DNA of 64,000 nucleotides, from contig NZ_VTOK01000003.1 of assembly GCF_009765375.1 (NCBI RefSeq), positions 186,001 through 250,000 on the forward strand, read 5' to 3'. The DNA comes from Alteribacillus sp. YIM 98480. Its GTDB lineage: Bacteria > Bacillota > Bacilli > Bacillales > Marinococcaceae. Both the position numbers and the translations under genes were made by a program. Below, in pieces: positions 59,963 to 64,000 of the stretch (position 1 is the stretch's first letter; the number at the start of each line of letters is the position of its first letter). The notes beneath the pieces were generated by a model. It searched no databases and was not told where the DNA came from. It worked only from the letters and a program-made list of their open reading frames with translations.

Positions 59963-62050
59963 ATGGAAATACTTAAATCAGTTCAACCAATATTACATAA
60001 AAAACTAGAAAATACCAACTATCAAATTTGGATAAGAATACCTAAAAACAAAACGCAGAATCTATTATATAAGAAAGGGGAAATCCCACTCTCTCCCCCT
60101 CCTTTCGTACCTGATTTAAACAAATATGAAGAAGGCTATAAAACGTATAGTGATGACAATAAACTGTATCTGTCTTTTTTCTATCAAGAAGAGTATCAAG
60201 TTATTATCTGTTTGTTTCAGCAGCACTCCATTTTCAGCACAACGGACTTAGACCAATTCTATCTTCTGTTTTATCTTGCTTTTTTGCAGGAGCTCATTGA
60301 AACAAAAGACAAAGAACTTAACCAATTGATTGATGGCATCCACTCTATTACCTCCTCCCTTGATGTAGATAAGGTATTGTCGAATATTATAAAAAATGCC
60401 CTTATGGTGTTTCCAAATGGAGACGCCGCTTTTCTGCAATTGTATGATCCTGCTCAAGATCGTTTAATTCCAAAAGCTTCTGCCGGTTTTAATAAAAGTA
60501 TTAATTTTTTTAAAACAAAAGTCGGAGAGTCCATTACGGGCAAGGTTTTTAAAGAGGGAAGTTCTAAAATTTATTACTCAGTTGATGATATCTATAAAGA
60601 CATGAGCAATGTATCCGATGAGAACGCATTTCACATTCATCGTGCTGTAGAGAACAGAACAGCCAAAGCTCTTATTTGTGTACCTGTTTCCATTGGGGAT
60701 AAACAAATCGGGGTGATGACCATACACCTTTATAAGGAAGGAAGCCTAACTGCAGATTCAGCTCACTTATTGCAGGGGTTTGCAGACCAAGCTGCTATCG
60801 CTATTAGAAATGCACAGCTTTATACGGACTTAAAGAAAAACTTGAGCGAAGTTACCGTGTTAAGCGAAAAACTAAAAGAAAAAAACCAAGTTCTTTTAAA
60901 AGGCAATGAAACCCATAAAACCTTAACCCGGCTATCGCTTCAAAATAAAGGAATTCATCCCATTGTTTTAGAATTAAATCGAATGATGGGCACAGCGCTT
61001 TACTTTGTTGATGTACTTGAAAATATTTACTATCCAAAACGATCTAGCCATTTTCAACCTTTTAAGCGTGAAACGATTGCAGAAATTTTTTCTAAAAAAC
61101 GAGAACCTGTTTATATGTCTGGAGGCAATGGTAAAGACTTTTATTTGTATCCAATCATAAACAGAGCTGTTTTTCTCGGTTGTTTGGTTGTATTGATTTC
61201 AAAACCGCTTTCCCGGCTGGAGCACGTTACCATAGAACAAGGGGCCTCAGCTCTCGCTTTGGAACTTGTAAAAAAACAAACGTTAACTGAAATACAATAT
61301 AAAAAAACACATGAATTTTTCAATGAACTCCTCGAACATAAGGATCCTGAATCTCTTACGGAAAAAGGCAAAGACTTCGGAATTGACCTTTCATCCTGTT
61401 TATTTGTGACCGTATTGGAGTTAAAGAACATTAGTGACCTGGAGCTACTTGAAGCTAACATTCACCAATTAGTTTCAAGCTTAAAAAGTCAGCTTACATC
61501 TTTTGACTACTTAGTGTTCGGATTTCACAACAAAATCAATTTAATGGCAGCAATGCAAAGAGACACAGACATGCAGAAGGTGACGTCAATTATTACGAAT
61601 ACCGTGAAAGAATATAATCAGAGAAACTCTCATCACTTATCTGTTGGGATTGGCAGGCTGTATAAAGGAATGGAAAATATAAATAAAAGCTATGATGAAG
61701 CAAACAAAGCACTTTCCTATATTACTAAAAGAAAAAAAAGAGGCATTATCCATTATGAGGATATTGGGGTTAATCGTTTATTTTTGGATCAATCCTCTGA
61801 AGAAATGAATAGATTTGTAGATGAAATTTTTGAGCCGCTTAAATCCAATGACTTGGACTTGAAAAAAACACTTATGGTTTACATGGAATCGAACAGAAAC
61901 GCTAAGTTATCGGCAGAAAAATTGCATATCCATATTAATACCTTATACCAGCGCCTCAAAAAAATCGAAAAAAGACTAAACCTTGACCTTAATAACCCCG
62001 AAGACATTTTAAAAATTCAGCTGGCCTGCCATTTGATGAATCATTTTTAA
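59963..62050 (+). CDS. GAF-domain PucR/CdaR-type transcriptional regulator
   Basis: A 695-residue regulator. The first ~125 residues are an unknown sensory part. A GAF domain follows (about 135-285; FLQLYDPAQDRLIPKASAG, ICVPVSIGDKQIGVMTIHL, FADQAAIAIRNAQLYTDL), then a coiled linker. The second half is CdaR/PucR-like: LSVGIGRLYKGMENINKSYDEANKAL (GGDEF-like) and the terminal HTH_30 ESNRNAKLSAEKLHIHINTLYQRLKKIEKRL. It is divergent from the DUF5058-M20-M42 operon with a 148-bp shared gap, so it is the likely activator of that operon. AAGGTGG precedes ATG. Confidence 0.9.
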   Translation: MEILKSVQPILHKKLENTNYQIWIRIPKNKTQNLLYKKGEIPLSPPPFVPDLNKYEEGYKTYSDDNKLYLSFFYQEEYQVIICLFQQHSIFSTTDLDQFYLLFYLAFLQELIETKDKELNQLIDGIHSITSSLDVDKVLSNIIKNALMVFPNGDAAFLQLYDPAQDRLIPKASAGFNKSINFFKTKVGESITGKVFKEGSSKIYYSVDDIYKDMSNVSDENAFHIHRAVENRTAKALICVPVSIGDKQIGVMTIHLYKEGSLTADSAHLLQGFADQAAIAIRNAQLYTDLKKNLSEVTVLSEKLKEKNQVLLKGNETHKTLTRLSLQNKGIHPIVLELNRMMGTALYFVDVLENIYYPKRSSHFQPFKRETIAEIFSKKREPVYMSGGNGKDFYLYPIINRAVFLGCLVVLISKPLSRLEHVTIEQGASALALELVKKQTLTEIQYKKTHEFFNELLEHKDPESLTEKGKDFGIDLSSCLFVTVLELKNISDLELLEANIHQLVSSLKSQLTSFDYLVFGFHNKINLMAAMQRDTDMQKVTSIITNTVKEYNQRNSHHLSVGIGRLYKGMENINKSYDEANKALSYITKRKKRGIIHYEDIGVNRLFLDQSSEEMNRFVDEIFEPLKSNDLDLKKTLMVYMESNRNAKLSAEKLHIHINTLYQRLKKIEKRLNLDLNNPEDILKIQLACHLMNHF

Positions 62051-62228
62051 TGTTTAGTTTTTCTATCGTTTCTTAGATAATCTGGAGTGCAAACAGATAT
62101 AGCACAGACTTGCATATGTGAACCCTACTGCGTGGGGCAATGTACAGTTCTTTTCTCATTTGGAGTATGTATCAAACGTTTCAGGAGGGGCATCCACAGC
62201 ATGCTTTTTTTCCCATTTAATTGGTAAT

Positions 62229-62320
62229 ACTCGCCGAATAGACGCATTTACTCGACAACTTTAAGCTTTTTCTCGCCGTTCATACGAAAATACTAGCCGT
62301 TTTTATAGATTTACTAGCCG
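62229..62320. repeat. Five-unit degenerate tandem array with 21-bp period
   Basis: ACTCGCCG, ACTCGACA, TCTCGCCG, ACTAGCCG and ACTAGCCG begin at 62229, 62250, 62271, 62292 and 62313, exactly 21 bp apart. The bases between are AT-rich and variable. It is in the 590-bp gap after the PucR-type gene (62051-62642), where I see no gene. Confidence 0.6.
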
Positions 62321-62642
62321 AAGAAGAAAGCACTAAAAGCTATATTGTTCTAGTTACTAAAATCCATTATCACCTAGAAGTGTTCTTTGTCCAGCGATTT
62401 CTGCTAAATAGCTTGAAAAAGGGGTAATGGAAGGTTTCGCGGATATCTGATCCTTTGTTTGAGGATGGATTTCGCCCCGTTTGCAGCAAATAACGGATTC
62501 AATTTCCGCACGCCTCCCATTTTCTCAGGATTTCACCAAAATAACGTACCATAAGTCCAATGTCATGCTTTTCTTCCTAGTGTGTGGTGCCCCAAAAACT
62601 CATCATTACCTACGAAACTATAGAAATAACCGGTATGGAGTA

Positions 62643-63212
62643 TCATTGTTTCGTTTGCATAAACCTTATTCTTTCTATCACTGAAAGTATTTCATTCATA
62701 TCAGCATGGTCGGGGGGATCCGTGTCTATATGCTGCCAAAGTATTTCTCCTGTCGTTTCAATAAGCCAAGTGGCCCCCAACTGATGGACATCCTGATGAA
62801 ACATAGCTTTTTTCACTATTCTCTTTTGATGTTTATCTTTAGGGAAAATTTCGCGGATCTTATCCGACATAAGGTACTGGGTAATCATGGTTAGAGCTCT
62901 TTTTATAGATAGACGTTTAAGGGATAGATCTTTATAAGATTGTAAGGTTGGATCGCCTAATATTTGAAAAGGATACGGCCCATAAACGCTTATAAACTCC
63001 TTTAATTGTTTTGTGTCCGCTGGGATGACAGCAGCAATGGATACTCCGTTTTGTTGAATCGTGTCTGCATGCTCACGCAACTGCGCGAGAAAATGACGGG
63101 TGCAGGGTCAGCCGGTGTGTCTTAATAATATGAAAAGGAGAGGATTTTCTTGATAGAGATCAGAAAGCTCAACTTGTTCCCTTTCTTCTTCCGTCTCAAA
63201 GGTATACTTCAT
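62643..63212 (-). CDS. Peroxiredoxin-like (AhpC/TSA) protein with in-frame TGA at the catalytic Cys; candidate selenoprotein
   Basis: Reading from the ATG at 63212 (AAGAGGA upstream) gives KYTFETEEEREQVELSDLYQ and PLLFILLRHTG, then TGA at 63108-63110 (residue 35), then PCTRHFLAQLREH and an uninterrupted frame to 62643 with GPYPFQILGDPTLQSYKDL and GATWLIETTGEILWQHID. AhpC-TSA-like proteins of this type have RHxGCxxTR, so TGA stands exactly where the redox-active Cys belongs. A hairpin fitting the bacterial SECIS model follows. Either selenocysteine is inserted, or a TGC/TGT to TGA mutation broke the gene. Ordinary gene calling would start at the TTG at 63080 and lose the active site. SelA/B/C are not in this window. 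Confidence 0.6.
63072..63089 (-). promoter_or_regulatory. SECIS-like hairpin downstream of the in-frame TGA
   Basis: Minus strand CTCGCGC-AGTT-GCGTGAG: seven pairs (one G-U) with a four-base loop that has G at its second position. The stem starts 18 bases and the loop 25 bases after TGA. This agrees with the described bacterial SECIS model (apical loop about 16-37 bases after UGA, G near the loop start). Confidence 0.45.
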
Positions 63213-63238
63213 TTTCATTCCTCTTTTCTTTAAAAAAT

Positions 63239-63623
63239 TTAAGACAGCTTATCAGGATTTAAAGTTATATAAATTTCTTTTACTTACTGATTAATGATAT
63301 ACACCAATAAGGCTATGAACCGCCCCATTCGCGTAATTAACAACCGCTGGCTAACCGATCACGTTTTTCATTTCTAAATCAAAATTCCATGTAAAAAGGC
63401 AAATACTAATGTCATTCTTTATTTAGATGACGACAGTAAAGTAAAAGCTGCTGTGCGGCCGATTCTATGCCGGAAATAAGATCAGTAATTTTTCCGCGTT
63501 TTGCATTTGAAAAGCTTGAATAAATCGTTGAATAACAGATTTATTCTGTTCATGATGTAAACTTTCGCCGGGGGCTTTTGAAAGCATTTGTTGACCCGGC
63601 TGTAGTTTTAAGCTTTGGTTCAT
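63239..63623 (-). pseudogene. ECF41/SigJ-type sigma factor remnant with internal inversion
   Basis: The minus strand from 63623 reads SLKLQPGQQMLSKAPGESLH, then VIQRFIQAFQMQNAEKLLILF, the sigma-4 linker and start of the SnoaL-like domain. The continuation lies on the PLUS strand at about 63408-63470: NVILYLDDDSKVKAAVRPIL. The C-terminal part is again on the minus strand: PAVVNYANGAVHSLIGVYH, then after a stop and frameshift YITLNPDKLS-stop at 63239. NPDKL and the DDDSKV (usually DGGGKV) position are ECF41 marks. Sigma domains 2 and 4 are missing. Thus the gene is truncated, frameshifted and internally inverted. Confidence 0.7.
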
Positions 63624-63661
63624 TAAAAATTTTACAATTTAGCTAGGACTGAGGCAAATTT

Positions 63662-63689
63662 TCATTTATGATAACACTATCATAAATGA
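63662..63689. promoter_or_regulatory. Perfect 28-bp palindrome upstream of the EamA gene
   Basis: TCATTTATGATA-ACAC-TATCATAAATGA: 12-bp perfect arms and a 4-bp centre, ending just before the ribosome site of the transporter gene. Likely a repressor operator overlapping the promoter or leader. Confidence 0.6.
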
Positions 63690-63703
63690 TGAGGTGGACA
63701 TCA

Positions 63704-64000
63704 ATGTTGGATAGACCTTCTAAAAATACAGGATTATTCCTTGTTATTACCGGAGCGATATTTTGGGGTGTTGGCGGTACCGTTTCCCAAAAACTCTTTC
63801 ATCAACACGCCATTGATGTAAATTGGCTTGTCACCATTCGCTTGCTCATAGCCGGCCTGCTACTTTTAGTCGTACAATATTTTAGAAAAGACCTTTCTTC
63901 TATACTTGATGTTTGGAAAAATAGAAGGACAGCTGTACAGCTAGTTATCTTCGGATTACTAGGCATGCTTGGGGTCCAATATACATATATGGCATCCATT
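63704..64000 (+). CDS. EamA/DMT-family transporter (C-terminus beyond window)
   Basis: The first 99 codons are visible. [23 protein letters not shown] is the first helix of the EamA domain, followed by [20 protein letters not shown] and [19 protein letters not shown], the usual helix order of drug/metabolite transporters (RhaT/YdcZ-like superfamily). GAGGTGG lies before ATG. A perfect palindrome just upstream suggests specific repression. The substrate is unknown. Confidence 0.85.

Follow-up and report, generated by a model that had tools for sequence, protein, structure and literature searches.

In bacteria, the SelB-dependent insertion of selenocysteine (Sec) at a SECIS hairpin is an established pathway. 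A CxxC or UxxC active motif is typical of the AhpC-TSA_2 redox proteins, though not required by the Pfam model, and the human prostamide/prostaglandin F (PGF) synthase is presumably PRXL2B. Peroxiredoxin-like (Prx-like) selenoproteins with the motifs UxxC, UxxU and UxxS appear in Table 1 of a 2026 review, which covers 119 families and subfamilies; NF040769 is absent from that table, and the review's main text contains no word beginning with "Bacill" (PMC13188914). The bacterial SECIS model given there has a loop of 3-9 nt with a G in its first two positions, a stem of 4-16 bp, a spacing of 16-37 nt and an energy of at most -7.5 kcal/mol (PMC13188914). Three selenoproteins are listed in Bacillales in a table of a 2006 survey. 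A search of the open-licence literature found no title or abstract start naming the clade described below; the kind of gene is known, and the window gene and its clade look undescribed as such.

The frame and its predicted product

The window, the whole stretch of 64,000 nucleotides that was analysed, carries on its minus strand a frame of 189 residues (63212-62643, ATG to TGA) whose sole interruption is a TGA at 63108-63110. Neither a frameshift nor another stop was found in the 189 codons, in agreement with the sequence-only reading, which had described the frame as intact on either side of this TGA. The features of the locus are as follows.

62643-63212, minus strand: putative selenoprotein gene, AhpC-TSA_2 / peroxiredoxin-like fold, Sec predicted at residue 35 (frame, Pfam, homologues, AlphaFold2)
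62643-62645, minus strand: terminal stop, also TGA (sequence)
63108-63110, minus strand: in-frame TGA, probably read as selenocysteine (TGA in 69/69 full-length homologues; selA, selB, tRNA-Sec and selD in the genome)
63072-63089, minus strand: predicted SECIS hairpin, 7-bp stem of 63083-63089 with 63072-63078, AGUU loop 63079-63082 (sequence, SECIS model, covariation)
63220-63224, minus strand: probable Shine-Dalgarno sequence AGAGG, 7 nt ahead of the ATG at 63210-63212 (sequence)

The read-through product is MKYTFETEEE...LLRHTG-U-PCTRHFLAQLREH...QTKQ-stop, with the motif RHTG-U-PCTRHFLAQLRE around Sec35. A further in-frame ATG lies at 63216-63218 on the minus strand. Under table 11 the longest frame at the locus begins at TTG 63080, downstream of the interior TGA, so that standard gene calling would probably lose the active site; the N-terminal mis-call suspected earlier is a fair inference. 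The earlier assignment to a Bacillaceae genome also fits NCBI's family placement of a relative.

The product matched Pfam AhpC-TSA_2 (PF13911) with 50.8 bits against a cut-off of 27. The AlphaFold2 model (pLDDT 89.4) has a Prx/thioredoxin fold in which residue 35 immediately precedes a helix (36-54), and this predicted model shows the typical peroxiredoxin arrangement, helix 1 having the reacting residue as its N-cap. The typical peroxiredoxin motif PxxxTxxC/U is absent, and residues 31-35 read RHTGU. The best solved matches in Foldseek were structures of human prostamide/PGF synthase (9usa, 9us9), with ResA structures also high, and a sequence alignment places Sec35 opposite Cys44 of the human enzyme. 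VIA-align ranked peroxiredoxins first (Z about 19), level with prostamide/PGF synthase (Z 18.4), the ten best rows having an rmsd of 1.9-2.5 over 143-152 residues. The protein is a Prx/thioredoxin-fold member of AhpC-TSA_2 (PRXL2/SelL-like), with Sec replacing the first active-site Cys.

The nearest named family is the SelL-related redox protein family NF040769 of NCBIfam, which was matched at E up to 0.001 by all 69 full-length homologues described below. Its cut-off of 120 was missed both by the window protein (99.8) and by the best of the 69 (114.8), and since the whole clade lies below it, the window protein is not filed in NF040769. In a sample of 398 genomes of the phylum, 17 genomes matched this family and two of the matches (L213 and L214) exceeded the cut-off; both carry an AGUU hairpin as well as the TGA at the site, which means that the nearest named family also has selenoprotein members. 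Cys at the site was found in three full-length matches below the cut-off (L217, L218, L230) and in a shorter one (L228), and these forms count against a purely Sec family.

Two genomes of the same phylum were seen to carry TGA-bearing SelL-like genes in tandem (L213/L231 in G642 and L214/L232 in G774), one gene of each pair being full length and the other a frame of about 110 aa. Short TGA-bearing matches occurred in eight other genomes of the 398, with frames of 107-119 aa that all read U-P-[FY]-C.

Conservation of the interior TGA and its hairpin

A search of 397 genomes of the order returned 82 match rows in 79 genomes, and 69 full-length homologues (E at most 2.2e-24, window copy included) were retained. 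In every one of the 69 a TGA stands at exactly the codon of residue 35, and none has another internal stop. This conservation lifts the observation beyond chance, and it is the comparison, not the hairpin alone, that decides. Excluded from the counts were 13 weaker rows. Among them were the decayed second copy of this genome, a partial match of the same type (in G199, with a TAG besides the TGA at the site), five short rows each containing a single TGA (G284, G304, G045, G089 and G232), a stop-free fragment (G304), stop-riddled short rows (G130, G148) and three remote stop-free proteins (G370, G034 and G330), the first two with Cys; the short rows of G284, G304 and G045 represent another redoxin, with the motif GTWUPNC.

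In a collection of named organisms the single protein, used as query, gave no matches, and alignment A2 gave 77 loci. TGA was present at the site in 70 of them; the other seven were three fragments ending short of the site and four remote Cys proteins with 18-30% identity (from a planctomycete, a myxobacterium, a Nitrospirae bin and a Bryobacter bin). No match at E 1e-5 was found among plasmid records. The sequence-only reading had placed the TGA where relatives have Cys, which is true of remote homologues only, the near relatives having UGA too; close relatives with an intact Cys codon, which it had named among the evidence that would overturn it, were found neither among the 69 nor among these 70 loci.

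Another TGA-bearing redoxin of the order, with the motif GTWUPNCR, was observed at four loci (L112, L113, L114 and L234), either as a protein of roughly 170 aa (L114) or as the start of a protein of 400-440 aa (L112, L113).

The hairpin noticed earlier, 18 bases on and with a G in its short loop, is indeed present: CTCGCGC (63089-63083) and GCGTGAG (63078-63072) form a perfect 7-bp stem 18 nt past the TGA, closed by AGTT (63082-63079; AGUU in the RNA). With 7 bp, an AGUU loop, a spacing of 25 nt and -10.1 kcal/mol it conforms to every constraint of the SECIS model as given in the review (PMC13188914). Taken alone, it is only suggestive of a SECIS. With both strands and every frame counted, the window contains 2264 TGA trinucleotides; a hairpin that satisfies the model with 7 bp or more comes after 127 of them, and a conforming one as stable as that of the window copy after 8 (0.35%). 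The fold stability of the 76-nt stretch is ordinary for its composition (z -0.08), and no SECIS match was returned by an Rfam scan of 62000-64000 at E up to 10. Downstream of the terminal TGA there is no comparable hairpin (best 5 bp, -1.2 kcal/mol). The five weak Rfam matches in 62000-64000, none of them to SECIS, were taken as chance.

Codon choice within the hairpin is highly restricted. Its Gln codon is CAG in 69/69 homologues (in the rest of these genes, 289 of 630 Gln codons), its Leu codon TTG in 68/69 (148 of 928 Leu codons elsewhere) and its Arg codon CGY in 68/69 (150 of 365). All seven stem pairs are formed in 63 of the 69 homologues and six of seven in the remaining 6, against an expectation of 0.19 fully paired sequences out of 69 when synonymous codons are drawn from the genes' own usage. 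Covariation was examined in 71 aligned elements, 65 of them distinct (the 69 together with L014 and L115), in which 98.7% of 455 cells are paired. Three stem pairs show changes in both partners (for one pair, in one sequence only), a number reached by 2 of 500 shuffles, and the covariation score of 0.254 was reached by none of the 500, under a shuffle control that is lenient where sequences are related; the number of further pair types equalled the shuffled mean. When the partner was shifted by one to three columns, pairing fell to at most 60.4% and the score to 0.004-0.110. As judged from these alignments, compensatory changes and a codon choice that goes far past what the amino acids require maintain the hairpin, an indication that it is selected as RNA.

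The variable pairs go with particular residues: pair 3 is C-G, U-G or U-A and goes with Glu or Lys at position +12, and pair 4 is A-U, G-U or G-C and goes with Thr or Ala at +8. Three distant sequences of the same phylum (L213, L214 and L219) keep the AGUU loop, with G-C at pair 3. Five of the seven short genes examined in this phylum have a GATGC-AGUU-GCAUC stem; of the other two, L221 carries AGUU on a GACGC-GCGUC stem and L233 is off the pattern. A scan of the bacterium's own genome with SECIS model R1, at E up to 10, returned 19 matches, led by the decayed copy (51.8 bits) and the window element (45.0 bits), both of which are in the alignment from which R1 was built. The third match (19.7 bits, E 0.0025, C9) runs antisense to a long open frame and was dismissed as a chance match; for the remaining 16, E was 0.66 or worse.

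One could suppose that a peroxiredoxin-like gene has simply been hit by a chance nonsense mutation and is decaying, with the hairpin a coincidence. The second copy in this genome (L014) and the copy of a sister species (L013) are truly broken, the usual +3 Cys is gone from the window copy, and an equally stable conforming hairpin follows 0.35% of the TGA triplets in the window. Against this, the TGA occupies the same codon in 69/69 homologues, the hairpin codons are constrained beyond the needs of the protein, and the 189 codons, free of any further stop or frameshift, show a dN/dS of 0.22. Decay of this kind has a practically negligible probability, and the chance mutation already held improbable by the sequence-only reading is as good as excluded by the TGA in 69/69. 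Given 68 homologues, an assembly error is unlikely as the source of the TGA. The stop codon and hairpin shared by many Bacillus-group bacteria mark a kind of gene that is in use, not broken.

Selenocysteine machinery and history of the gene

The selenoprotein proposal had been staked on a search of the genome for selA, selB, selC and selD, and all four were found. The selA match scored 474 bits, and selB (631 aa, 356 bits) was above its cut-off. A tRNA-Sec adjoining selB scored 58.1 bits against the RF01852 cut-off of 47, which is of limited specificity, 5 of 14 control genomes passing it; ARAGORN assigned it the anticodon tca. The selD gene of the same genome (L002:9976-11028, G000:C30) has a TGA of its own at residue 18, the usual Sec site (KAGUGCKIGP), followed by a hairpin similar to that of the window copy, TGGCGCAA-GTA-TTGCGTCA; its longest table-11 frame begins only at TTG 10066, which is too late.

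Across the order sample, the UGA gene was found in 69 of the 181 genomes with a strong selA match and in none of the 216 others (Fisher p 4.8e-28, overstated since the genomes are kin); 57 weak SelA-like matches (E above 1e-50) were classed as no selA. In G025, a member of the taxonomic family, selA and the UGA gene are present without any PF00384 molybdopterin oxidoreductase match, and the Sec machinery of this genome is not likely to be kept by a molybdopterin-type formate dehydrogenase. In this genome and seven relatives, no TGA was found in the 30 stretches matched by PF00384, a domain at whose edge the Sec site of formate dehydrogenase may sit, so that some of these enzymes may still be of the Sec type. 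The sister species G001 was observed to have a second selA in pieces with TAA stops between (L044, L045 and L047; G001:C1:3864834-3865911) besides an intact selA elsewhere.

Taken together, the conservation of the UGA, the covariation of the hairpin, the machinery genes and the co-occurrence with selA support the selenoprotein reading, and we estimate at about 96% the probability that the interior UGA is decoded as selenocysteine and that the gene encodes a bacterial selenoprotein; the insertion of Sec itself we infer from the first three of these together with the predicted fold. Decoding of the UGA as Trp, Cys or Arg, or plain readthrough, might be considered instead, as the inserted residue cannot be told from sequence alone. 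Such decoding appears very improbable: UGA is in use as a stop, since the window gene and 17 others among the 69 terminate with it; in the sample, only genomes with selA carry the gene; the site lies opposite Cys44 of human PGF synthase and the Cys of remote homologues; and selD of the same genome has a TGA at a known Sec site.

The nearest relatives of the window copy are those of G150 and G409 (61 and 55% identity), with which it forms a common clade (support 99/100). A blastp comparison of the window neighbourhood with the regions of these two found, in addition to the gene, a single similar frame, in G409 only and with 47% identity. In five other genomes of the taxonomic family the gene belongs to another clade, and in two of them, G020 and G017, it stands in a conserved gene neighbourhood. 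The second copy of the present genome (L014/L206, G000:C1:518717-519157) lies at the ancestral place shared with the intact copies of G020 and G017. It is broken, with several in-frame stops and its N-terminus missing, and its SECIS still matches well. The sister species G001 has a broken remnant of the window-type gene adjoining an apparent remnant of a regulator-like gene; a regulator-like gene (59963-62050, identified by eye) also flanks the window copy. No copy was found in the sister species G002. With both L014 and the sister-species copy broken, the gene is not indispensable in the genus. Most simply, this distribution would be explained by replacement of the ancestral copy in the genus by a second, diverged one, which in the sisters subsequently decayed or disappeared.

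The window copy is apparently under purifying selection, its NG86 dN/dS against the nearest relative being 0.22, a rough value with dS near saturation. Two other pairs of the family gave lower values (0.11 and 0.06), and its branch is longer (0.45) than those of the two nearest relatives (0.25 and 0.23). Together with the UPCT motif, the branch and the higher dN/dS make some relaxation of selection possible. This leads to the further proposal that the gene is a selenoprotein by origin but that the window copy, as a replacement copy under relaxed selection, is drifting, Sec still being inserted while function fades. Besides the motif, unique among the 69, and the longest branch in its clade of three with a dN/dS above that of the two other pairs, the broken copy in G001 and the lack of a find in G002 would fit such drift. 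The frame, start and hairpin are intact, however, dN/dS is still 0.22, and of 34 strongly conserved columns the copy deviates from the family in only 4, in two of which both nearest relatives differ too. We consider fading function unlikely.

Active site, proposed reaction and comparison with known systems

Among the 69 homologues the motif is UxxC in 60, UPYY in seven, UPIY in one and UPCT in the window copy only, so that CxxC/UxxC is absent from the window copy and eight other members. Cys is wholly absent from the seven UPYY proteins, and apart from the one at +3 the set has no conserved Cys; Sec is the sole Cys/Sec position common to all 69. The family therefore cannot depend on a resolving Cys within the chain, and the Sec must be open to resetting by an outside thiol. 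R31 is invariant and H32 is present in at least 90% of members; placed at a helix N-cap after Arg and His, the Sec would be suited to attack a peroxide or a disulfide.

In the mechanism that we propose, SelB with Sec-tRNA-Sec and GTP would bind the hairpin just past codon 35, and the ribosome would put selenocysteine at UGA 35 rather than terminate, whereas the final UGA, with no such hairpin after it, would still terminate. The product would be a single-domain, probably cytosolic enzyme of the Prx/thioredoxin fold whose helix 1 is N-capped by Sec; no hydrophobic N-terminus was seen by eye. Its selenolate would most likely reduce a peroxide or a similar oxidant, and the oxidised Sec would most likely be reduced by an outside thiol (thioredoxin, bacilliredoxin or bacillithiol). 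The outside reductant is preferred to a fixed resolving Cys because +3 is Thr here and there is no other conserved Cys.

A peroxidase-type reaction is favoured over disulfide exchange, and the Sec would then be the peroxidatic residue. A thioredoxin-like or reductase-like selenoprotein that exchanges disulfides is a plausible if somewhat doubtful alternative, as UxxC, the motif of thiol-disulfide oxidoreductases, occurs in 60/69, ResA structures rank high in Foldseek, and the closest relative of solved structure bears the name of a prostaglandin synthase rather than of a peroxidase. Yet the +3 Cys is missing from the window copy and replaced by Tyr in eight relatives, seven of which are devoid of Cys, and the VIA-align comparison was headed by peroxiredoxins, albeit tied with prostamide/PGF synthase.

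Tentatively, and with somewhat less than even confidence, we suggest that the clade is Sec-obligate: the Cys form would hardly ever persist, and the gene would be lost or decay without the Sec trait or the need for it. The protein would be a one-selenium enzyme with no in-chain resolving Cys, served by an outside low-molecular thiol, and Ala or Thr at +8 and Glu or Lys at +12 would vary in ways that preserve hairpin pairing, whether Watson-Crick or G-U, the RNA steering the protein.

The points of interest are the near-absolute commitment of the clade to Sec and its freedom from a resolving Cys, whose role is directly testable in the natural UxxC, UxxY and UxC variants. Ordinary annotation would probably shorten or drop the window gene and its relatives, and the clade is common, being present in 69/181 selA-bearing genomes of the order sample. 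It represents a reason besides formate dehydrogenase for Bacillus-group genomes to retain the Sec machinery, as in G025.

With human PGF synthase the window protein shares the AhpC-TSA_2 domain, the top Foldseek structures and the position of its Sec35 opposite Cys44; the human enzyme has Cys44 and Cys47, whereas the window protein has Sec35 and Thr38. The listed Prx-like selenoproteins (PF00578 with UxxC or UxxU; cd02970/PF13911 with UxxS) belong to the same domain group and likewise have Sec at the first active-site Cys, but UPCT is not among their motifs as tabulated, the comparison being one of listed motifs and not of sequences (PMC13188914 Table 1, PMC9312934). Sec-containing peroxiredoxin (TxxU) shares with the window protein the Prx fold and Sec as the presumed reacting residue, and differs from it in its PxxxTxxU motif, in place of which the window protein has RHTGU.
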